A DNA stretch of 47,737 nt, taken from NCBI RefSeq assembly GCF_017982655.1, contig NZ_JABXYX010000057.1:1-47737 (forward strand), written 5' to 3'. The notes under the pieces are model-generated. The model ran no database searches. It had not been told where the DNA came from and saw nothing but the letters and a program-made list of their open reading frames with translations. This document shows, in pieces, positions 2,927-47,737 of the stretch (position 1 is its first letter; every line of letters starts with the position of its first letter). The translations under genes and the position numbers were made by a program. The stretch comes from Brasilonema sp. CT11 (GTDB lineage Bacteria > Cyanobacteriota > Cyanobacteriia > Cyanobacteriales > Nostocaceae).

Positions 2927-4384
2927 ATGAGTCATTATGTTGTGATTAGTATCGCATTATGCTTGCCTACATCAGACATTGAGGCACTGTTGCAAGGTCG
3001 AATTATTGCAGCTATATCTAATAAATTTATTGCTCAAGGGCGAGAATTTGCACTTTGTCCAACAGATGAATTAATGAACGTGCTGCCAGTTGAGCGGTAC
3101 TATCACTCTAGTTTCTTATGTATTGCTCAAACAGCTTTTACTCAACTTGGTACTGAAACCGTCTCAATTAAAGCTTGGGCAAAGTGCGAATTATGCCAAA
3201 TTATTAATAGTGCTGAATCACTCGCTGGTTTATCGTCGCTAAGGATTTGGACACAAGAAGCTTTACAAGAAATACTCACGCAACGGCAAAACATCTTTCT
3301 GGCTTACCTGCGCGTGTATTACCTGCCTGAAGCAATTGAAGTCCCTGTCAAGAAAAACAGTCAATTCATTGCTTTACCTTATCCTCTGACAGTTTCTCAA
3401 GCAAACCCCGTGTTTGCGGATGGCATCTTTACCATCCGCAAACACCAACTAGAAACACGTCAACCGCCACCGCACCCAGAATTAGAAGATTTGCAAAGTG
3501 CTTTAGCCTCCTTTGCCATCACCAACCCAGCCGCTAAACAATTAGATCAAGATATCAAAGTATTTTTAGGTTGGACTACTACTGAGCAATTTATCCAGCA
3601 AAACGATCCAGATTTAGCTTGGATAAATAACATTGCAGCGTTAGGCGATCGCAGCATAGAACAAGATAAAGGCAAAAGCAACTACCAAGCTGGCACAGAC
3701 TTTGAAAATATAACACGCCGCAGCCTTGAGTTTTTAGGATTTAAGGTTGAATCTGATTACAAAGGTGGTGCTGGAGGCTTAGATTTATTTTGTTCAAAAC
3801 CGTATTCCTTAGTTTGCGAATGTAAGGCAGGTAAAAGTATTCCTGATCGTACAGTTGAGGAATTGGATAGGATTGGCAAAAGGCATCTTAAAGAAAATTA
3901 TATGAACGCTGTTCGCTTGATTATTGGTCCTGGTAAACCGACTAAACAACTTCAAGTATCGGCTGCAATATCTAAAATTAGTATCATTAATGCTATGACT
4001 TTACAGAAATTAGTTGAACTACAAGCAAAATATCCTGGTTCTGTTGACTTAATTGAACTACAAAAATATATTGCTCCTGGACAGATTGACTACAATATTG
4101 ATGAATATATTGAAAAAGTTAAAAAACATATCCAATTGCGATCGCATTTAGTGCAACTTGTCAAAAAATATCTAGAAAATACAGGTTTTGAAAGAGCCAG
4201 TGTTGATTCCCTTCATGGTGCTTTCAGCGCGACTTCACTTAATAAATTACAGCCTCAAGAAATGCACGAAATTCTTGTTGAACTTTCCTCACCATTAACA
4301 GGTTATGTCGGACGAATCAAAGGAGAAGATTGGAGACGCGATCGCTTTTACTTCCTGCGTGACTTACCAACTCCTCAAATTTAG
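2927..4384 (+). CDS. DUF1802 protein with C-terminal PD-(D/E)XK nuclease domain
   Basis: The first ~170 residues (ALCLPTSDIEALLQG, YYHSSFLCIAQTA, KAWAKCELCQI) match my memory of the cyanobacterial DUF1802 family. Residues ~250-345 form a restriction-endonuclease-like core of the Mrr/PD-(D/E)XK type: E260 in the first helix (FENITRRSLEFLGF), GGLD with D286, then VCECKAG with E298 and K300. This is the full E...D...ExK signature, so the nuclease is probably active. Residues 380-485 are helical, possibly a DNA-binding or partner-binding tail. Start: ATG right after the ATPase gene stop, with a 6-bp gap and only a weak ribosome site, suggesting translational coupling. A palindromic repeat follows the stop. 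The nuclease fold is supported by sequence; the biological role is inferred. Confidence 0.82.
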   Translation: MSHYVVISIALCLPTSDIEALLQGRIIAAISNKFIAQGREFALCPTDELMNVLPVERYYHSSFLCIAQTAFTQLGTETVSIKAWAKCELCQIINSAESLAGLSSLRIWTQEALQEILTQRQNIFLAYLRVYYLPEAIEVPVKKNSQFIALPYPLTVSQANPVFADGIFTIRKHQLETRQPPPHPELEDLQSALASFAITNPAAKQLDQDIKVFLGWTTTEQFIQQNDPDLAWINNIAALGDRSIEQDKGKSNYQAGTDFENITRRSLEFLGFKVESDYKGGAGGLDLFCSKPYSLVCECKAGKSIPDRTVEELDRIGKRHLKENYMNAVRLIIGPGKPTKQLQVSAAISKISIINAMTLQKLVELQAKYPGSVDLIELQKYIAPGQIDYNIDEYIEKVKKHIQLRSHLVQLVKKYLENTGFERASVDSLHGAFSATSLNKLQPQEMHEILVELSSPLTGYVGRIKGEDWRRDRFYFLRDLPTPQI

Positions 4385-4417
4385 CTCTTTTCTTTCTTAC
4401 CTTTGCGTCCTTTGCAC

Positions 4418-4503
4418 GGCAGTTGCTACAACGGGGGGAACCCCAACGCCAGATACCTACGGAGGGAAACCCTCCTGCAGTACTGGCTCCGCAACGCACT
4501 GCC
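4418..4503. repeat. Palindromic interspersed repeat downstream of nuclease gene
   Basis: An approximately 86-bp element begins GGCAGTTGCTAC and ends CGCAACGCACTGCC, so its ends are imperfect inverted repeats. It carries an internal hairpin, GGAGGGAAACCCTCC. The same core recurs at 11221-11252 and 47347-47384, and inverted at 47486-47510. The outer parts resemble the insert at 7595-7693. It is directly downstream of the three-gene module. Confidence 0.7.
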
Positions 4504-4618
4504 TCGTCTTAGCGGTTCGTTTATCTTAAAATTTATTATCCCAAAGTTAGTATGAAAAACACAAAAAAATTAAGGTGAGCTACTTAACCCACCCTCAATG
4601 CAACATAACCCAAACAAC

Positions 4619-5089
4619 CTATACTGGAGTCGCCCCATAATTCTTTATTTGATTTGTGATTTCCAAATTCTTCAACGCCGCTTGGGCTGCTTCTAAGTCA
4701 TAAGGAAATGGTCGTTTATGGGGTATGTAATCCCGTGGTTGAGGTGGTTTGTGACGCAGTACTGCATTCACCAAAACACACGGTTCAGAACTCAAATTAA
4801 TCGCCCCGTGCAAAACTCCCGGCGGAATTGTCACGACTACAGAATGGTCTTCACTTAAAGGAATATACTGGTATTGTTTATCCAGCAATGTCGCAAGGAC
4901 AAAGTGTCCTTTTACGACTAATAGTTGGTCTGTATGTGTTTTGTGAACAAATAAATCATCTATTGTGTTGGGTGGAATTTGTACCAGCATTGTTTCATGA
5001 CTGGCTTGAGCTGTAAAGAACTCTACCATCCCTCCCTTACTGGATTCCAGCCTACGGATTTCAATTCCCCTGAATTTAGTTTTACTCAT
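4619..5089 (-). CDS. Cupin-fold protein, epimerase-like
   Basis: A 156-residue protein with a single cupin barrel. KTHTDQLLVVKG near residues 50-61 and IPPGVLHGAIN near 88-98 fit the two cupin motifs, with H52 and H94 as the obvious candidate metal or substrate ligands. It resembles cyanobacterial proteins annotated as cupin or dTDP-4-dehydrorhamnose 3,5-epimerase-like, but it is shorter than true RmlC and its reaction is unknown. The start is supported by AGGA seven bases upstream of the ATG. Just upstream lie a bulged hairpin and a terminator-like hairpin (5104-5182), so expression may be controlled in the leader. It is separated from pgi by 336 bp of repeats, so it is probably transcribed on its own. 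Confidence 0.75.
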   Translation of the reverse strand: MSKTKFRGIEIRRLESSKGGMVEFFTAQASHETMLVQIPPNTIDDLFVHKTHTDQLLVVKGHFVLATLLDKQYQYIPLSEDHSVVVTIPPGVLHGAINLSSEPCVLVNAVLRHKPPQPRDYIPHKRPFPYDLEAAQAALKNLEITNQIKNYGATPV

Positions 5090-5103
5090 ATCAGTATCCT
5101 AAA

Positions 5104-5149
5104 AGAGCATCGTAATAATTGAAGCTTTACCTTCAATATTAGATGCTCT
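5104..5149 (-). promoter_or_regulatory. Bulged long hairpin in the leader of the cupin gene
   Basis: The arms at 5104-5124 and 5131-5149 pair as AGAGCATC, TAATA and TTGAAG blocks with two single-base bulges and a 6-nt loop. On the minus strand it is followed by TTTT, then AGGA and the cupin ATG. A possible promoter for the gene overlaps its upstream edge: TTGTTG, 17 bases, then TATGAT (5155-5150 on the minus strand). The hairpin would therefore sit at or near the 5' end of the message. Its role as a stabiliser, attenuator or operator is not determined. Confidence 0.5.
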
Positions 5150-5154
5150 ATCAT

Positions 5155-5182
5155 AAAAAATTGTTACTTCGGCAACAATTTT
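5155..5182 (-). terminator. Rho-independent-like terminator, minus strand
   Basis: A nine-base stem (5157-5165 with 5174-5182, AAAATTGTT/AACAATTTT) is capped by a C-TTCG-G tetraloop after one mismatch. On the minus strand it runs directly into six T residues. It would end transcripts coming from the pgi side before the cupin gene. It partly overlaps a possible promoter for that gene. Confidence 0.6.
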
Positions 5183-5209
5183 GCGCAAAAGTATGATATG
5201 GGAATTACA

Positions 5210-5243
5210 TCAGTTATCAGTTATCAGTCATCAGTGAACAGTT
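5210..5243. repeat. Heptameric short tandem repeats, left block
   Basis: Degenerate copies of CAGTTAT/CAGTCAT/CAGTGAA repeat every seven bases. This is the short tandem repeat class common between genes of filamentous cyanobacteria. The array resumes at 5364 after a 120-bp inverted-repeat element. Confidence 0.75.
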
Positions 5244-5363
5244 ATACCAAATCCGCTTTTCTAACCCCCTTTTAACCCAGGCGATTAGAAATCGCGACTA
5301 CACAAACAAAGTCCGCCTACGCGGACTAAATAATAAAGGGGGTATTAGATCCGGATTTGGTAT
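5244..5363. mobile_element. 120-bp MITE-like element inside heptamer array
   Basis: The terminal inverted repeats are ATACCAAATCCG and CGGATTTGGTAT, extended inward by matching ACCCCCTTT / AAAGGGGGT blocks. A perfect internal hairpin, AGTCCGC-ctac-GCGGACT, is present. TTA precedes TACCAAATC and follows GATTTGGTA, consistent with a TTA target duplication. There is no coding capacity, so movement would need a transposase elsewhere. A second element with TACCAAATC/GATTTGGTA ends lies at 11195-11283. Confidence 0.65.
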
Positions 5364-5421
5364 TACCAGTTACCAGTTACCAGTTATCAGTTATCAGTTT
5401 CACTGTTCACTGATAACTGTT
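5364..5421. repeat. Heptameric short tandem repeats, right block
   Basis: CAGTTAC and CAGTTAT units repeat in phase for about 40 bp, followed by an inverted segment (CACTGTTCACTGATAACTG). This continues the array interrupted by the element at 5244-5363 and runs to the pgi stop codon. Confidence 0.7.
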
Positions 5422-5425
5422 TTAA

Positions 5426-7012
5426 TCAGCTAACAGAAATCTTCAAACTGCTGGGTTGTGCTAGATCTCCTTGCAACACGAATCCACGCTGATTTGCGTA
5501 TAAATGACGCACAATCTTATAAATTGCCTCGATTTTGTCTGTTGCACCAGCTTTTTGAGCAATTTCCTCTATAGAAAGTGCTGTTTTTTCTGTTTGCAAA
5601 ACTTTTACAACTTGTTTTTGCAAGTCCAGAATTGCAGCCGCAGCTTTTTTACCAGCTTCAACACCTGGTTGATGGTAGGCGTTGATGTTAACTAAGTTGC
5701 CATAGAAACCTACAGCGCGATCATATAAAGCAATGAGCGCACCCACGATCCGGGCATTCACTTGGGGAATGGTCACAGTAATCGAGTCGCGCTGGTTTTC
5801 ATAAAGCGCTTCTCGGGTTCCTTGCAAAAAACCAGAGAGATAGTCGCCTGCTGTGATTCCAGGTTCAAGTTCTGAAGATGGTCCGTTGCGGTCTTCTAAA
5901 ACTTCAATGAATGTGGCAAAGAAATTCGGCACACCCTCACGCAACTGCTGAACATAAGCGTGTTGGTCGGTTGAGCCTTTGTTGCCATAAACGGCGATAC
6001 CTTGGTGAACGACGTTACCTTCTAAGTCTTTCTCCTTACCCAAGGACTCCATCACCAGCTGTTGTAAATACCGACTGAAAAGAAGTAAGCTGTCTTTGTA
6101 GGGTAGGACAACCATGTCTTTTTCGCCGCGTCCATTGCCAGCATAATACCAAGACAAAGCTAACAATGCGGCTGGGTTTTGTTTGATATCGGGGACGCGG
6201 GTGGCGTCATCCATCTGTTTTGCACCGTCTAGCATGGCGAGAATATCAACACCTTGCAACGCCGCTGGTAATAACCCGACAGCAGATAATTCTGAGGTGC
6301 GTCCTCCCACCCAGTCAAACATGGGAAATCTTGCGAGCCAGCTTTCGGATTTTGCTTGTTCGTCCAGCTTACTACCTGCCATAGTTATGGCGATCGCATA
6401 ATTAGCAAAGTCCAAATTCTGTCGAGCGTAAGCCTTTTTAACTTCAATCATGCCATTACGCGGTTCTGGCGTTCCCCCAGACTTGGAAATCACCAATACC
6501 AAAGTGCTGGCAAGACGGTTTCTCAAATGATTTATAACGCGGTCAATTCCTGCTGGATCGGAATTGTCAATGAAGTGAAGTCCCAGCGGGGGGAAGTCTG
6601 AGGCTAACGCTTCCGCAACAAATTGGGGACCTAAGGCAGAACCACCAATACCAATAGAGATAATATCAGTGAAGCGAGGCGCTTTTGGAGGATGAATTCC
6701 ACCCGTGTGGACTTTTTCGGCAAATACTTCGATTTGCTCTATGCTGTCTACGATTTCTTGTGTGAGTTCTGGCGTAGGGGCTAAATCAGGATTTCGCAGC
6801 CAGTAGTGTCCAACCATGCGGTCTTCATCTGGATTGGCGATCGCCCCCTTCTCAAGTTCCGCCATATCTGCAAAAGCTTTTTCAAACTTCGGCTGCAATT
6901 TCTCTACAAAGGCGTCGTCAAACCGCATCCGGCTCACATCTAGGTATAGTCCCAATCCTTTATGGAAATATAACCATTTCTGGTATCGTTGCCAAAGTGC
7001 CGTAGCGTCCAT
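5426..7012 (-). CDS. pgi: Glucose-6-phosphate isomerase
   Basis: This 528-residue protein interconverts glucose-6-phosphate and fructose-6-phosphate in the cytoplasm. In a cyanobacterium it links the Calvin cycle, glycogen and the oxidative pentose phosphate pathway. The diagnostic PGI stretch [15 protein letters not shown] is present. [13 protein letters not shown] and [13 protein letters not shown] are the sugar-phosphate-binding SIS segments, and [11 protein letters not shown] and [14 protein letters not shown] lie in the C-terminal half. Length and motif order match the shorter bacterial/cyanobacterial PGI class. ATG start; it appears to be a single-gene unit with repeat-rich DNA downstream. 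No defects are visible. Confidence 0.95.
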
Positions 7013-7400
7013 AGGGGAATCTCAGGTAAAGTGATTTTCAAAAACAAGTTTAAGCCAAGGTGCTAACAATCCCTGTCTACCTTATACAGTTTTAAGTGTT
7101 GGCTGAATTCTTGACCTTAAACATCTGGCATAAGTATGACCTCATCAGAATTTTCTCATCAGACAAAGGCAGATGAGCAGAAGGGGCTACTTCTCAAATA
7201 AACTACATGGGAACAGATTGTCCTGCTGCAAAGACTTGTTTTGCCGTGAGTTGCAAGTTGGGAAAGGTTAAGGAAACAAGTTGGTCGTTATTTTGAAATA
7301 ACTGTTTTTGATACTCATCCTCTAATAATGTACAAATTGTCACCGTTGGCTGCTTAGGTTTACCAATATATTCTCTGCCACCAATGCCCAGATAATCGAC

Positions 7401-7516
7401 GGACACTTGCTACCCTTCGGGAAGCCGCTTCGCGTCTACAAGCCGGGGAACCCTTTCGGCAGTTCCTCATGGGGGAAACCCCCAAGACCGGACTGCCTCA
7501 CCAACGCAGTGTCCTC
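7401..7516. mobile_element. 116-bp palindromic repeat inserted in the Uma2 gene, GAC duplication
   Basis: The insert starts GGACACTTGC and ends GCAGTGTCCTC, giving inverted GGACACT/AGTGTCC ends. GAC occurs immediately on both sides (7398-7400 and 7517-7519). Removing the insert and one GAC joins FEYWIV to DYLGIGG in frame. It has no coding capacity. Internal GGGGGAAACCCCC-like and TTCGGGAAGC-like palindromes relate it to the other repeats in this window. Confidence 0.8.
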
Positions 7517-7594
7517 GACAATCCAATACTCAAACACCCCTAGTGTGGCGTAATCTTCAACCTTACGGGCGTAGTCGTTTTGCCAATTTGTACT

Positions 7595-7693
7595 AACCCT
7601 TACGGGTTCGTCAGTTGCTACAACGCGGGGAACCCGACGCCAGGTGCTTCAAGTCGGCAAAGCCGCCCAACGCACTGGCTCCGCAACGCACTG
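7595..7693. mobile_element. 99-bp palindromic repeat inserted in the Uma2 gene, ACT duplication
   Basis: ACT flanks the insert at 7592-7594 and 7694-7696. Removing it with one ACT joins AEVVS to TNWQNDY in frame. The text TCAGTTGCTACAACG followed by GGGGAACCC and ending ACTGGCTCCGCAACGCACTG closely matches the repeat at 4418-4503, so the family is shared. Read on the gene strand it contains a TGA stop. Confidence 0.8.
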
Positions 7694-7978
7694 ACTCACG
7701 ACTTCAGCAATGAGTTTAATTGAATTTCCTAATGTAATAACAGGTTCTTTTTGCCACAACGGCTCATTGATCAGTCGAGTTTGGTCTAACACAATGAGAT
7801 CGGGACGAAATGCGGTATCTGTCCCTAACAATTTAATCAAGCATCGATGGGGAATAAAATAGGTTGCATCCTGACGGTCAATTTCTACATTCAGTTTTCG
7901 CCCAATGAAGGCGGATACCTGTTCGTGTGGTCCAGTTGGTTCCATCTCAATTAATTCACCATCAATTAACTCATAGCG

Positions 7979-8029
7979 TTCTGCTAAAAGCAGCAGCGCT
8001 AGCCCCGAAGGGGGCGCTACGCAAACGCT
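7979..8029. mobile_element. 51-bp in-frame palindromic insert in the Uma2 gene
   Basis: Seventeen extra codons lie between YGDRD and RYELIDGEL, where Uma2 proteins normally run straight through. The insert contains the palindrome AGCCCCGAAGGGGGCGCT and is bordered by inverted ATAGCGTT / AACGCTAT. It encodes SVCVAPPSGLALLLLAE without a stop. It resembles in-frame palindromic elements known from Rickettsia genes; that comparison is inference. Confidence 0.7.
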
Positions 8030-8135
8030 ATCGCGATCGCCGTAGTTGGTAATAAATTCATCAACAGTTAGAAGTTTTGGCGCTGATTTCACCATTGTGA
8101 TTGTTCCCGATAATTCTTGCCTACCCAGAGTTTTT

Positions 8136-8927
8136 TTAAACGAATTCTAAGTCAGCAGCAATGCCAAAATGGTCGGAAGGGTACAAAGTGCGGCTTTCCC
8201 GTGCAGGCTGGTTAAGAATGACTTTGCACGAACGTACCCGCAAATGTTGATTGATAAATATGTAGTCTAAGGTACCGCGCCAGGGTCGTAAAGTGCGATT
8301 AGATATTAAGTCCCGTACAAGTTGGCGCAATGCCTTTTTCCAGCTACGGCGAGCAAGAGGTGTAGGACAGGTGTATTCTGGTTCTTGTCCGTGGTACTCA
8401 GCATAAGCTGATGTAAAATGTTGTTTCATCAGCATGATAGCTGGAGTTTGGGGTGTGCCATTAAAATCACCCACTGCGACAATTGGTATGGACGATGGAA
8501 GCTTACTTAGCCAATCAATGAGTAACTGCACTTGTTTTGTACGTTCTGGATGATGACCCGGATACCAGTAATAATGTCCGTTGCAAAACACCAATGGCTG
8601 ACCATCCAAATTAACTTGTACATATTGAGCAACTCGTCCCTGAGTTTGTAAATCCAGAACTGCTTCTTCCACAAATGGGTGGCGACTGAGAATCGCATTT
8701 CCCACCCCGATGTCGCTGATACTTGTTGGACGATTGTCTGGAACTAGATGCACGTATGGCATATCAAGCTTATCAGCAAGCCAAGCAGCTGTGTTTTCTG
8801 GTAGCTTAACTTCCTGTAAAGCAATCAGGTCAGCTTGCTCTGCCTGAAGTCCATCAACTAACAGAGTTCGCCGTTGCTCCCAGTCTGCCATGTCGTACAA
8901 GATGTTGATTGTAAGAAGCTTAACCAT
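8136..8927 (-). CDS. Endonuclease/exonuclease/phosphatase-family protein
   Basis: A 263-residue metal-dependent phosphodiesterase-fold protein. Key positions of the EEP fold are visible: LQEV with E39, VGDFNGTP with D154 and N156, TLDYIFI, and PSDHFGI with D252 and H253 near the end. No signal peptide is seen, so it is probably cytoplasmic. The family spans DNases, sphingomyelinases and inositol phosphatases, and the substrate cannot be read from sequence. It is transcribed from 8927 towards the broken Uma2 gene 40 bp downstream and may once have been co-transcribed with it. ATG start. Confidence 0.88.
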   Translation of the reverse strand: MVKLLTINILYDMADWEQRRTLLVDGLQAEQADLIALQEVKLPENTAAWLADKLDMPYVHLVPDNRPTSISDIGVGNAILSRHPFVEEAVLDLQTQGRVAQYVQVNLDGQPLVFCNGHYYWYPGHHPERTKQVQLLIDWLSKLPSSIPIVAVGDFNGTPQTPAIMLMKQHFTSAYAEYHGQEPEYTCPTPLARRSWKKALRQLVRDLISNRTLRPWRGTLDYIFINQHLRVRSCKVILNQPARESRTLYPSDHFGIAADLEFV

Positions 8928-9169
8928 TTAGTAGTGCCATGAAACGTATTTTATTTGACACTCTTAGGCTCGTGAAAAATTGCTACGCTTACTTCTACAA
9001 ATTTTTGTAGAGATAAATCTTGTGTAATTATACATTTATCAATGCATAATGTCAACTAATGACTCATGACTCATTATTCCTTGATGGTACAAGCTGCCGG
9101 ATAAATTCTTTGGAACTAATCCATAAGTTAAGATCCAAAATTCCCAAAAAAGGGATCTGTCCGTGGAAT

Positions 9170-9203
9170 AAATCCAAAATCTAAAATCTAAAATCCAAAA
9201 TTG
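9170..9203. repeat. Heptameric tandem repeat AAATCYA
   Basis: Four contiguous seven-base units (AAATCCA, AAATCTA, AAATCTA, AAATCCA) are followed by a partial unit, just upstream of the amino acid permease gene. This is a typical cyanobacterial heptamer array. The rest of 8928-9218 shows no gene. Confidence 0.8.
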
Positions 9204-9218
9204 TCTGACTCATGACGT

Positions 9219-10352
9219 ATGGCTGAATATCTCATTTTCTTAACGATTTCTACTTCAATTTTTGCATTGTTTGGTTTGGGGCTGAACTTACAGTGGGGCT
9301 TTACGGGTTTGATTAACTTTGGTCATGTTGCCTTTATGACGCTGGGCGCATACACCACTGTATTGTTAACCTTAAAAGGAGTTCCTTTGGTGCTGTCAGC
9401 AATCATTGGGGCAGTTATCGCAGCGTTGTTGGGTTTGGTAATTGGTTTCTCGACTTTGCGTTTGCGAGAAGATTACCTAGGAATTGTGACTATTGGCGTT
9501 GGCGAACTGATTCGTCTGGTGGTGAATAACCAGGATTTGCCTGTTGGTAATGAGTGGAAAGCTGGAGCATTTGGTGTCCAAAGTTATCCTATACCGTTGG
9601 CAACTCTTGTCCCTAATCTGTTCATCAAACTTTTGTTGATTGGGCTGTTGACGCTACTTGCGCTGATTACTTTATGGCAGTTATGGCGGTGGGTTGGTGT
9701 TTCTAGAGTGTCAAATTCTGCGAAGTCACACAAGAAAGTCGGTAGTAAGCAAGAATTTATATCACACCTAGTTATAGGAGTTTTTTTAGCACTGTTAACA
9801 GTGGCAATTTATATATCTGGTGTTATGGGCTTGTATGACTACAAGGCCACAACAGGTTTGATGTTGGTATCACTTATAGTATTGGCTTTTGTCTTCTGGC
9901 GGTTGGAAATTTTAGTGCGATCGCCTTGGGGTCGAGTTCTCAAAGCTATCCGCGAAGATGAAGAGATTCCCAAAGCTTTAGGAAAAAACGTCTTTTGGTA
10001 TAAACTACAATCACTGATGCTCGGAGGTGCGATCGCAGGAATTGCAGGTGCTTTCATCGCATGGCAACTTAGCGCAATTTACCCAAATAATTTTGAACCG
10101 ATAGAAACTTTCACTGCTTGGATCATCGTCATTTTAGGTGGTTCTGGTAGTAATCTCGGCACAGTCTTGGGTGCAGTGCTTTACTTTATGTACTATGAAG
10201 GTACGCGCAACTTGGATAAAATTCTCCCTATTGATTCAGACCGTTTAAGTGCATTGCGGATTATGATCATCGGTCTGATCTTGATGGTACTGATGATTTG
10301 GCGTCCTCAAGGTATCTTAGGGAAAAAGGAGGAACTCACCCTTGGCAAATAA
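9219..10352 (+). CDS. Branched-chain/neutral amino acid ABC transporter permease (LivM-type)
   Basis: A 377-residue inner-membrane permease with about eight to ten hydrophobic segments. It carries LivM-family text: LNLQWGFTGLINFGHVAFM near residues 23-41, TLRLREDYLGIVTIGVGELIRL, and the ATPase-coupling loop SPWGRVLKAIREDEEIPKALG. It probably forms the channel of an importer for hydrophobic amino acids, like the Nat (N-I) system of Anabaena and Synechocystis. It is slightly longer than enteric LivM because of an insertion around residues 165-190. Its end overlaps the ATPase gene by 11 bp, so the two are translationally coupled. No binding-protein, LivH or LivF gene is adjacent; in cyanobacteria these are commonly scattered. 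Confidence 0.9.
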   Translation: MAEYLIFLTISTSIFALFGLGLNLQWGFTGLINFGHVAFMTLGAYTTVLLTLKGVPLVLSAIIGAVIAALLGLVIGFSTLRLREDYLGIVTIGVGELIRLVVNNQDLPVGNEWKAGAFGVQSYPIPLATLVPNLFIKLLLIGLLTLLALITLWQLWRWVGVSRVSNSAKSHKKVGSKQEFISHLVIGVFLALLTVAIYISGVMGLYDYKATTGLMLVSLIVLAFVFWRLEILVRSPWGRVLKAIREDEEIPKALGKNVFWYKLQSLMLGGAIAGIAGAFIAWQLSAIYPNNFEPIETFTAWIIVILGGSGSNLGTVLGAVLYFMYYEGTRNLDKILPIDSDRLSALRIMIIGLILMVLMIWRPQGILGKKEELTLGK

Positions 10353-11127
10353 CGAGTCATCCCAAATTCCTCTGTTGACTGCAACTGGAGTTTGTAAAAA
10401 CTTTGGTGGTATTAAGGCTGTAGATAACGCCGAAATTCAAGTACCAAGTGGTAGTATCACTGGATTGATTGGTCCTAACGGTGCAGGTAAAACGACATTA
10501 TTTAACTTACTCTCAAATTTCATCCGTCCAGACAAAGGACGAGTCACGTTTGACGGCGAACCGATACAGAACTTGCAGCCACACAAAATTGCCCAGAAGG
10601 GAATGGTACGTACCTTTCAGGTAGCCAGAACTCTGTCGCGGTTGTCGGTGCTAGAAAATATGCTGCTAGCGGGACAAAAACAAACGGGCGAGAAATTTTG
10701 GCAAGTCCAATTCCAACAACCCAAAATTGCCAAAGAACAAAAAGAATTCCAAGAACGAGCACTTTTCCTCTTAGAGTCAGTAGGATTAGCGCACAAAGCA
10801 TATGATTATGCTGGAGGGTTATCTGGCGGACAGCGTAAGTTGCTGGAAATGGGAAGAGCACTGATGACTGAGCCTAAGTTAATATTATTGGATGAACCAG
10901 CCGCTGGGGTAAATCCGAGACTGATTGATGAGATATGCGATCACATTACTGGCTGGAACAACAGTGGCATGACTTTTCTGATCATCGAGCACAATATGGA
11001 CGTGATCATGTCGTTGTGCGATCGCGTTTGGGTGCTAGCTGAAGGACAAAATCTCGCTGACGGAACAGCACAAGAAATTCAGAATCATCCAAAAGTTTTG
11101 GAGGCTTATCTGGGCAAGTCAGCATAG
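10342..11127 (+). CDS. Branched-chain/neutral amino acid ABC transporter ATPase (LivG-type)
   Basis: A 261-residue ATPase energising the permease encoded just upstream. Walker A is GPNGAGKT at residues 44-51, the signature LSGGQRKLLEMGRAL lies near 163, and Walker B LILLDEPAAGVNP follows. The switch histidine is in FLIIEHNMDV. The LivG-specific RTFQ sequence (GMVRTFQVARTLSRLSVLENML) is present. It starts at TTG (10342), supported by AAGGAGG about ten bases upstream inside the permease gene; no ATG or GTG fits as well. It resembles NatA of the cyanobacterial N-I neutral amino acid permease, but I assign no symbol. A hairpin at 11149-11179 may end the transcript. Confidence 0.9.
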   Translation: MANNESSQIPLLTATGVCKNFGGIKAVDNAEIQVPSGSITGLIGPNGAGKTTLFNLLSNFIRPDKGRVTFDGEPIQNLQPHKIAQKGMVRTFQVARTLSRLSVLENMLLAGQKQTGEKFWQVQFQQPKIAKEQKEFQERALFLLESVGLAHKAYDYAGGLSGGQRKLLEMGRALMTEPKLILLDEPAAGVNPRLIDEICDHITGWNNSGMTFLIIEHNMDVIMSLCDRVWVLAEGQNLADGTAQEIQNHPKVLEAYLGKSA

Positions 11128-11148
11128 GAGTATAAGTAGCAAAGTGCG

Positions 11149-11179
11149 ATCGTTCCCAGGCGTTTTGCTTGGGAACGAT
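11149..11179 (+). terminator. Hairpin downstream of amino acid transporter operon
   Basis: A ten-base perfect stem, ATCGTTCCCA (11149-11158) with TGGGAACGAT (11170-11179), sits 21 bp after the ATPase stop. No clear T run follows. The CGTTCCCAGGC core belongs to an interspersed palindrome class also seen near 12321 and 20510, so it may be a repeat serving as a transcript end. Confidence 0.45.
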
Positions 11180-11194
11180 TGTATAAGGATGTCT

Positions 11195-11283
11195 TACCAA
11201 ATCACCCTTCGGGTTCGCCAGATGCCTACGGAGGGAAACCCTCCTGCAGCACTGGACTCACTTTAAGGTTGCCAGATTTGGTA
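11195..11283. mobile_element. 89-bp element with TACCAAATC ends carrying a nested palindromic repeat
   Basis: The ends TACCAAATC (11195-11203) and GATTTGGTA (11275-11283) match those of the 120-bp element at 5244-5363. The interior differs and contains the CTACGGAGGGAAACCCTCC family repeat seen at 4418-4503. No target duplication is obvious. It looks like a MITE-type element holding another repeat. Confidence 0.5.
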
Positions 11284-11359
11284 TTACACACAGAAACTTT
11301 TTTGCCTTTGCGTTTCCGTGTGTAACTCGTCGACTTGTGCTTGAAATCACTGTGATTCT

Positions 11360-11983
11360 TCAAGCATCAACGCGCTTACCATATCTTTGAGTGAATCCCA
11401 AAGCAGATTGAGCAGAGGGTAATGTAGAAGTCGCTGTTTGTGCAGTTAATTGACTCACTGTTATTGGTTGAGTTTCATACTCCGTGCTAGTAATCACCAG
11501 CGGTTTGGTAACGGCTTGAGAAAATGTAGCTTCCTCTGGATTTTTTGTGGAAATGCGTGGCGCAGCCTGTTTAGGACTTGTATTTGCAGTAGATACTGCT
11601 GTTTGAACTTTACTCTCATCTTCGTCTAAGAACCATCTCAGTTGAGAAAGCATCGGACTGGATGGTGAAACTTTCAGCGTGTGAATTTGAGAGTCTTTTT
11701 CCGAAATTTGCTTTTGGAGATTGGACAACTGGTTTTCTAACTCAGAAGATTGACGTAAAGATTTTTGCCATGTCCACAATACAGCACCCGTAAGTCCTAG
11801 TCCAAAACTGAATGCAGCTCCCACTCCTGGAGAAACAAAATCCTTTAGTTCCCCATAGAAAAGTTCTTGCTCTTCTAGTTGGACTTTCACAGGCTTAGAC
11901 CCTTGCAGGGCTAAAAGTAACATAAAAGAGGCAAAAAGCGTGCCTGATATCACTACGGTCGGGAGTAAGATTTTTTTAAGCAT
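11360..11983 (-). CDS. Hypothetical protein with two membrane segments and a coiled coil
   Basis: I do not recognise this 207-residue protein. Residues 5-27 form a membrane segment or uncleaved signal anchor, and GVGAAFSFGLGLTGAVLWTW (about 53-72) forms a second. Between them are about 25 residues rich in charge. Residues 75-105 (SSELENQLSNLQKQISEKDSQIHTL) make a short coiled coil. The rest is Ser/Thr/Gln-rich and probably disordered. The topology suggests both ends on the same side of the membrane. It is convergent with the amino acid transporter genes and has its own ATG start. Function unknown. Confidence 0.65.
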   Translation of the reverse strand: MLKKILLPTVVISGTLFASFMLLLALQGSKPVKVQLEEQELFYGELKDFVSPGVGAAFSFGLGLTGAVLWTWQKSLRQSSELENQLSNLQKQISEKDSQIHTLKVSPSSPMLSQLRWFLDEDESKVQTAVSTANTSPKQAAPRISTKNPEEATFSQAVTKPLVITSTEYETQPITVSQLTAQTATSTLPSAQSALGFTQRYGKRVDA

Positions 11984-12320
11984 AACGAAAGCCTACTGGT
12001 ATCAACGTGTCAAAACAACTTAATCAAAAACCCGTAGCCGTGCTCAAAGGCTGTACCTGCTACCTAAAAAAATTTCAAAATCCGAAATCTAGGCAACAAA
12101 GGGATACGGATTATACTTACGTTCTCATCCAAAGTTAGTAAATTTATGTGCTATATGTTTATAAAGTTTTGATAAAGTATACCCTAATTTTATGAATTTT
12201 TTGTATTGTCAATCTTGTAAATACTTACAAATACGGATAAAGGTATAAAAACATGATTTAGCACTGATATAGGAAAGATAACGCCAATTCTTAAGAACGC
12301 GCGAAGCCTCAAGTCAGGCA

Positions 12321-46412: not shown

Positions 46413-46490
46413 AACTTATCCATAGTTGTTCACGACAACTACTTTATCTACTTTGGTGCTTCTATCAACACAAACACCTTTTACTTGCGA

Positions 46491-46531
46491 GGCAGTGCGT
46501 TGCGGAGGTTCCCTCCGTTGTAGCAACTGCT
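46491..46531. repeat. Palindromic repeat between rnhB and the DUF1997 gene
   Basis: GGCAGTGCGTTGC and GCAACTGCTG are imperfect inverted ends, with AGG-ttc-CCT inside. Its GGCAGTGCGTTGCGGAG text recurs at 47395 and, as reverse complement, at 4490. A short hairpin, TAGTTGT/ACAACTA (46423-46441), precedes it. No gene in this gap. Confidence 0.65.
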
Positions 46532-46672
46532 GTCCCACAAACGTATATTTGGAGCTAGCCGATCCTACGAACGTATTGAGATTTCACTCAACAACGTAAC
46601 ATCTGCATAGGTCTATGTACATCTGTAGTTCATCACAATTCTATGTTCATAAATACTAAAACTTATTCATAA

Positions 46673-47329: not shown

Positions 47330-47737
47330 CCAGCGCGGACGCCATATGCCTATGGAGGGAAACCCTCCTGCAGCAGTGGCTCGTCTTGGGGAGGCAGTGC
47401 GTTGCGGAGCCAGTGCTGTTCGCGCAGCGTGGCACTTTGTGCCATAGACGGGTTTCCCGTCTATGGCATCTGGTGAGACCAGCGCTGCAGGAGGGTTTCC
47501 CTCCGTAGGCGACTGGCGAACCCGAAGGGCGTTGGGGTTCCCCCGACGGTGCGACCTGCCGTGGTTTCCTCCATGAGTGACTGGTGAGACAGCGCGCATG
47601 AGGAGGGTCTCCGCTCTCGGGCGCGACTGCGGAGCGCTCCGCGGAACCGGAGGTTCTCCCCGATAGCCCTCCGGGGAAGACCTGAGCCCTTCGGGCACGG
47701 CCCCGTGCCGAACGGTCTCGCTACGCTTTAGACCTCT
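47330..47737. repeat. Dense cluster of palindromic repeats to the window edge
   Basis: At least four palindromes stand in succession. A CTATGGAGGGAAACCCTCCTGC copy is at about 47347-47384. A perfect 12-bp hairpin, GCCATAGACGGG-ttt-CCCGTCTATGGC, is at 47441-47467. An inverted CTGCAGGAGGGTTTCCCTCC copy is near 47486. GC-rich CCCTTCGGGCACG / CCCGTGCCGAACGG blocks run at 47690-47715. The composition is much more GC-rich than the genes. No credible coding sequence. Confidence 0.8.

Follow-up and report, generated by a model that had tools for sequence, protein, structure and literature searches.

The window analysed here, a stretch of 47,737 nucleotides corresponding to contig C352 of the 8.79-Mb, 411-contig draft genome of Brasilonema sp. 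CT11, is collinear over nearly its full length with three related genomes, G002 (94.4% identity), G004 (96.1%) and G001 (91.5%). It carries a disrupted gene of the Uma2 family, which lies between a phosphoglucose isomerase gene and an endonuclease/exonuclease/phosphatase gene and into which three short palindromic inserts, termed E1, E2 and E3, are set:

5426-7012: phosphoglucose isomerase gene, one neighbour of the Uma2 gene
7203-8095, minus strand: Uma2-family gene (PF05685), disrupted, recognised from the Pfam profile, homologues and the ORF list
7396-7519, minus strand: insert E1, 114 bp between two TCGAC copies, 119 bp net, a nest of hairpin units
7592-7696, minus strand: insert E2, 99 bp between two ACT copies, 102 bp net, a nest with a tail hairpin
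7976-8028, minus strand: insert E3, a HIP1-associated palindrome of 51 bp net that keeps the frame and contains no stop
8136-8927: endonuclease/exonuclease/phosphatase gene, the other neighbour of the Uma2 gene

Subtracting the three net lengths from the present gene (893 - 119 - 102 - 51) leaves 621 bp, as long as the uninterrupted G004 orthologue, which encodes 206 amino acids plus a stop. A first-pass annotation of this DNA had placed the inserts at these positions and arrived at the same restored length; the 116 and 99 bp that it gave for E1 and E2 are our values less three repeated bases. The inserts affect the reading frame in different ways: E1 shifts it, E2 adds a stop, and E3 contributes 17 open codons. 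The Uma2 ORF now terminates within E2 at 148 amino acids and, as the longest ORF remaining in the gene, matches the PF05685 profile with an E-value of 1.4e-11.

Relatives without the inserts point to the direction of this change. Among 30 matched loci, the window being one of them, we took the 14 in which the match touched the gene region, and aligned 13, omitting locus L014 of G006, where only the edges are present. These 13 comprise four same-genus orthologues with the same neighbours (G001-G004) and nine further homologues of 67-81% identity, whose homology is judged by sequence, synteny having been established for G001-G004 alone. All three sites are empty in 13 of 13, with alignment gaps of 51, 102 and 119 bp and with matching flanks. 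A wider set, the best 80 further homologues, favours intact genes, since two of the six search peptides adjoin the junctions and lower-ranking homologues were dropped. All 80 run through the E1 and E2 sites without interruption, and 79 do so at the E3 site, where the remaining one is not covered. G005 gave no match within the Uma2 gene among the matches listed. Since the sites are empty in the aligned loci and uninterrupted in the wider set, E1, E2 and E3 are gains, the window holding the derived state and the empty sites the ancestral one. The refuting check proposed in the first-pass annotation, carried out on these relatives, left the insertions standing. The first-pass annotation had spoken of excision, which we did not see. 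Short, high-copy repeats can mislead short-read assembly, and the evidence here consists of assemblies rather than reads, but an artefact of the 411-contig draft is very improbable: unique flanks on both sides of the inserts are collinear with three relatives across nearly the whole 47.7-kb contig, and other assemblies show differences of the same kind.

When the inserts are omitted, the interrupted copy differs from the four same-genus copies by nine synonymous changes, three replacements and no stop of its own, so the gene was conserved up to a recent time and its disruption is recent. Relaxed selection, suggested earlier as a reason for three hits in one gene, is thus not seen for the time before the hits and is likely for the time after them. 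The gene nevertheless seems dispensable, because its body is absent from the corresponding place in G006, a same-genus relative, and the copy in G019 (L025) has four internal stops in the alignment; damage to this gene is in itself ordinary. Within the window, five insertions of the types described here lack a counterpart in G002 and G004 (at 4415, 7396, 7592, 7976 and 46487), and three of the five lie in the Uma2 gene. A rough hand estimate that takes no account of selection, and that we do not treat as proof, puts the chance of three hits at 10 x (621/47,500)^3, or about 2e-5 for this gene, rising to about 1e-3 when some 60 genes are considered. Repeats of the GTAG type reported in filamentous cyanobacteria also lie inside genes, some of which are hit twice according to the available text (PMC3733652), so multiple hits in a single gene have precedent.

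E1 and E2 are composed of hairpin units of 44-45 bp that also occur elsewhere in the window. The positions of these units and related features are as follows (R1 denotes the covariance model described below):

4415-4505, minus strand: 90-bp intergenic insertion without counterpart in G002 and G004, a 44-bp unit (4446-4489, model seed) between the halves of another
7410-7439, minus strand: third module of E1 (30 bp, the CTAC at either end included), assigned by comparison with other units
7456-7499, minus strand: 44-bp hairpin unit inside E1 (R1 34.1 bits, E 3.7e-5; DNA fold z -4.07)
7595-7608, minus strand: tail hairpin AACCCTTACGGGTT, located at the 3' end of the outer E2 unit, with similar tails after other units
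7637-7681, minus strand: 45-bp hairpin unit inside E2, seed of the model (R1 65.0 bits; DNA fold z -2.51)
11215-11259, minus strand: 45-bp unit, intergenic, tailed (R1 match)
46487-46533, plus strand: 46-bp intergenic insertion without counterpart in G002 and G004, a single unit at 46489-46533, model seed
47339-47382, minus strand: 44-bp unit (R1 match)
47477-47518, plus strand: 42-bp unit, tailed (R1 match)

In E1, a 44-bp unit lies between the halves of another unit, and the third module interrupts this outer unit; in E2, a 45-bp unit lies between the halves of another and a small tail hairpin is added. Because two of the three inserts are nests, more than three events must be counted, and the "three independent" repeats of the first-pass annotation are too few.

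Whole-genome searches returned many partial, mosaic matches. We compiled a presence/absence set of 178 events of 18-700 bp that passed our filters, drawn from 1.82 Mb of partly collinear contigs of four genomes; gain and loss are polarised by an outgroup at the Uma2 sites, and all other events are plain presence/absence differences. Single units appear in this set as a 46-bp event at window position 46487 and as a 45-bp event within another repeat in G002, and a 52-bp insertion in the genome of strain CT11 holds a 44-bp unit within a heptamer repeat; clean unit insertions measure 45-46 bp. These events, the 90 bp at 4415 and the empty Uma2 sites support the earlier proposal to the extent that the palindromes are present or absent as whole units and have sharply defined ends. 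The covariance model R1, which has 45 positions and 13 pairs and was built on seven units, gave 108 matches at E<=0.5 in the 1.82 Mb, seeds included. It was used in place of a strict pattern search, which had returned three hits in the 1.82 Mb against eight in three Markov sets of that size and was thus at chance level.

The body of the unit consists of an outer stem and an inner GC-rich hairpin. Many copies begin with GAG at the 5' end and finish with CGT at the 3' end, both mostly constant and unpaired, and in some units, that of E2 among them, a CGAACCC-GAAGGG tail replaces CGT. In an alignment made by the model, which is fitted to the structure and includes the seeds (A2), 131 cells are changed on both sides of a pair, where shuffles average 34 and slid controls range from 9 to 44; for one of the pairs assumed in the stem, 78 of 94 cells are unpaired. 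Folded as DNA and measured against shuffles, four of the window units reach z-scores of -2.5 to -4.1, E1 as a whole -3.1 and E3 -2.2, and the whole of E2 folds just modestly better than its shuffles (-1.54). An Rfam search over positions 4000-12000 gave one sub-threshold match alone, to CRISPR-DR28 at 5305-5328 (E 0.063), probably by chance, and one or other of four unit strings of 11-14 letters occurs in 16 papers of the literature, where none of the 15 listed deals, by title, with cyanobacterial repeats.

Often, one unit separates the two halves of another, its position being just 5' of the latter's inner hairpin. Counted over the 84 of 108 R1 matches that score 26 bits or more, 11 are nested in the same orientation and five in the opposite one. 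E1, E2 and the element at 4415, whose 90 bp correspond to about two units, are three of the 11. Nine of these 11 are preceded by GCGTTG and two more letters and followed by a GGG-CCC hairpin, a neighbourhood that the nesting pattern itself required, so nesting elsewhere was missed; the unit at O 129434, within a GGAGGG-TTTCCC stretch, is an example outside the pattern. Differing composite repeats occupy very similar GTCATGAGTCAT heptamer-repeat sites in strain CT11 (L305 around 11822, O 151822) and in G004 (L068 around 10835, G4 190835), which suggests recurrent targets.

The flanks of E1 and E2 had been read in the first-pass annotation as 3-bp target duplications of GAC and ACT. The ACT of E2 stands (7592-7594 and 7694-7696; 6 bp against G002, with a mismatch tie), but the repeat around E1 is TCGAC, five letters and not just GAC (7396-7400 and 7515-7519; 6 bp when scored against G004). 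Across the 16 events of less than 300 bp that contain a whole unit match, the shortest edge repeat over the comparisons is 0 bp in nine events, 1 bp in three, 2 bp in two, 3 bp in one and 5 bp in one, and the longest is 0 bp in nine, 1 bp in two, 2 bp in three and 6 bp in two; chance at equal base frequencies gives 9.0, 4.5, 1.7, 0.6, 0.2 and 0.05 events for 0 to 5 bp. With 14 of 16 events at 0-2 bp, near chance in these contigs of four genomes, a fixed 3-bp duplication is not supported as a rule for the unit. The 45-bp unit in G002 (G2b 21678) has an edge repeat of zero. Five unit-overlapping events of 300 bp or larger (507, 437, 366, 323 and 624 bp), which were left out of this set, have repeats of 1, 5, 0, 12 and 0 bp, respectively. 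Old target duplications may have decayed in the presence/absence events away from the Uma2 sites.

The only unit events at 3 bp or more by the shortest scoring (3 and 5 bp) both lie in the Uma2 gene, each with a chance of about 5%, and a real short duplication may exist at the E1 and E2 sites. Of the five letters repeated at E1, four match the GT and GA ends of the unit, as assigned by homology, so microhomology is the simpler reading; a true 5-bp duplication may alternatively have arisen there. Outside the R1 matches, a tailed insertion at O 157601 has a 3-bp edge repeat (GTG) and other tailed or tail-like events alongside it have 0 to 4 bp; a short duplication may occur in this tailed class.

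Longer edge repeats are found among AT-rich events of 60-300 bp, 19 of 43 reaching 3 bp or more where about two are expected. As the same holds for 44 of the other 113 events, a mixed group that includes tandem repeats, this contrast shows just that our method can detect edge repeats and is not specific to transposition. One AT-rich insertion of 142 bp, without counterpart in G002 and G004, is located in the window itself (5221-5362), with an edge repeat of 3-4 bp and within CAGTTA-type heptamer repeats.

Cut-and-paste elements of the MITE type, with terminal inverted repeats (GGACACT/AGTGTCC in E1), a 3-5 bp target duplication and a DDE transposase, would account for the perfect 7-bp inverted ends that E1 shows between its two TCGAC copies, for the ACT flanks of E2 and for the AT-rich insertions with longer edge repeats in the same genomes. 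They remain an unlikely source of the units, whose edge repeats are close to chance and whose ends differ between copies yet stay self-complementary; moreover, an autonomous partner was sought by eye among large insertions, and of the 21 that measure at least 500 bp none carries the ends of the unit. The available text of PMC3733652 gives terminal inverted repeats of 15-30 bp for MITEs and names Nezha among those of cyanobacteria. Like such MITEs, the unit is short, non-coding and dispersed, but it is a single hairpin and shows no fixed duplication.

E3 belongs to a palindromic family different from the 45-bp unit and associated with HIP1 (GCGATCGC). Its flank repeat is GC or nothing, depending on the relative. 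Six events fall into the E3 class by motif, with shortest edge repeats of 0, 3, 3, 3, 6 and 6 bp; G2 97378, G4 118280 and O 79783 represent one orthologous site, at which an exact 6-bp GATCGC repeat is present in G4 only. The context of E3 is GCGAT(A/C)GC; the independent sites of this class are few, the empty site of O 148365 lacks HIP1, and O 213343 lies in another context. For SDR5, the available part of PMC4390886 describes insertion between the third and fourth letters of HIP1, which E3, likened here by description and not by sequence, fits loosely. Taking the three inserts together, we regard the disruption of the Uma2 gene as real and recent; it involves two or more families of palindromic repeats and includes nesting. 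Rickettsia palindromic elements are palindromic inserts that are retained within proteins. E3, in frame and without a stop, resembles them as a palindromic insert in a gene (a likeness drawn in part from the available text of PMC3733652), but E1 shifts the frame and E2 introduces a stop, and the Uma2 gene shows no sign of a protein being kept.

The unit is widespread in the family. At E<=0.001, R1 matches occur in 20 of 21 family genomes, that of strain CT11 included (the highest count being at least 147, with 150 candidates scored), and in two of 14 others of the order. Seven same-genus genomes hold at least 132-147 matches each among 150 scored candidates, and eight of ten genomes reached through named loci have matches; 23 matches were counted in Nostoc punctiforme NIES-2108, 48 in Calothrix PCC 7716 and 39 in Moorena bouillonii (best E 3.3e-7). 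Among plasmids, five records contain matches to the 4415 element, and a single Brasilonema strain accounts for two of these.

Five Y1-transposase genes are present in the CT11 genome, of which, on our reading, two appear to adjoin TnpB-like ORFs and one appears RAYT-like. Counts of Y1-transposase genes do not, by eye, track unit counts across the genomes with R1 counts. The RAYT-like gene (L268 1456-1992) matches its relatives over about residues 1-131 only, the remainder lying in another frame; it appears broken or frameshifted, and its neighbours are other repeats, not the 45-bp unit. The state and surroundings of this gene, the one RAYT-like gene found, speak against a REP-associated transposase, for which the first-pass annotation had proposed to look. 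Movement of the units as REP/REPIN elements by a RAYT (TnpA-REP) tyrosine transposase, which overlaps with our preferred reading as an enzyme candidate, could still be argued from the presence of this gene and from the size, hairpin form, copy number, covariation and, in many copies, internal GTAG of the unit, which resemble the GTAG repeats in the available text of PMC3733652. We consider it rather doubtful, as G001, G007, G013, G016 and G020 gave no match to our RAYT query, which represents one subfamily and may have missed others, yet hold at least 105-142 unit matches, and G001 has units without counterpart in relatives at the same sites. Neither the RAYT query nor the Y1 counts nor the 21 insertions of 500 bp or more revealed an enzyme linked to the unit. 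With GTAG REP and REPIN sequences, as far as the available texts describe them (PMC3733652, PMC3116915), the unit shares GC-rich hairpins, many copies, matched stem changes and an occasional position in genes. It differs in that the printed units have no terminal GTAG but end in GAG and in CGT or the tail, and in that no RAYT gene flanked by the unit was found (one RAYT-like gene in the genome, one subfamily searched); it may yet prove identical with GTAG-12, -15 or -16 (PMC3733652).

In general, the unit fits a known kind of element, the SDR/REP-like repeats. The small dispersed repeats (SDR) of Nostoc and its relatives, reportedly described by Elhai et al. in 2008, are said to form families of 21-27 nt that are palindromic and mobile, show compensatory stem changes, are nested in their own copies and are found in heptamer repeats. 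The 45-bp unit is likewise a short palindromic dispersed repeat of filamentous cyanobacteria, with compensatory stem changes in an alignment fitted to the structure, with insertion into its own copies (11 of 84, plus five in opposite orientation) and with an occurrence in a heptamer repeat; its 44-45 bp exceed the reported SDR length, and the two were compared by description, not by sequence. Movement in the SDR manner by way of an RNA copy, or by template switching at hairpins, would require no dedicated DNA transposase and overlaps with our preferred reading. Stem compensation, self-nesting and the lack of a fixed duplication agree with what is reportedly known of SDRs, but full-length units stand at unrelated places, which slippage alone does not give. 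SDR5 is moreover described as inserted within HIP1 (PMC4390886, available part), and we regard such a route as a possibility to be held tentatively.

The explanation that we favour, and consider probable, combines nests of a non-autonomous mobile hairpin unit with a separate HIP1-associated insert in the Uma2 gene. Three insertions are present in the gene of this Brasilonema-type lineage and in that of no compared relative. The 45-bp unit would be mobile but non-autonomous: recognition would depend on its folded single strand and unpaired ends, and mobilisation would occur in trans, with an HUH-type nuclease or an RNA-based route as candidates; the short edge repeats could arise by microhomology. 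After one insert had disabled the gene, further hits would have been free of cost. More speculatively, the 45-bp hairpin might be a complete mobile unit that is recognised by its structure and its unpaired GAG and CGT ends, makes no target duplication, prefers its own inner hairpin as a target and moves through an undescribed enzyme or process, a proposal that we put forward as conceivable and not as probable.

Empty and filled sites in close relatives define, almost to the base, the ends of one of the smallest mobile elements. They argue that it moves without duplicating a fixed length of target, and they allow plain insertion to be told apart from nesting. With its ends so defined, the 45-bp unit offers a substrate with which the old question of how tiny repeats move becomes testable.
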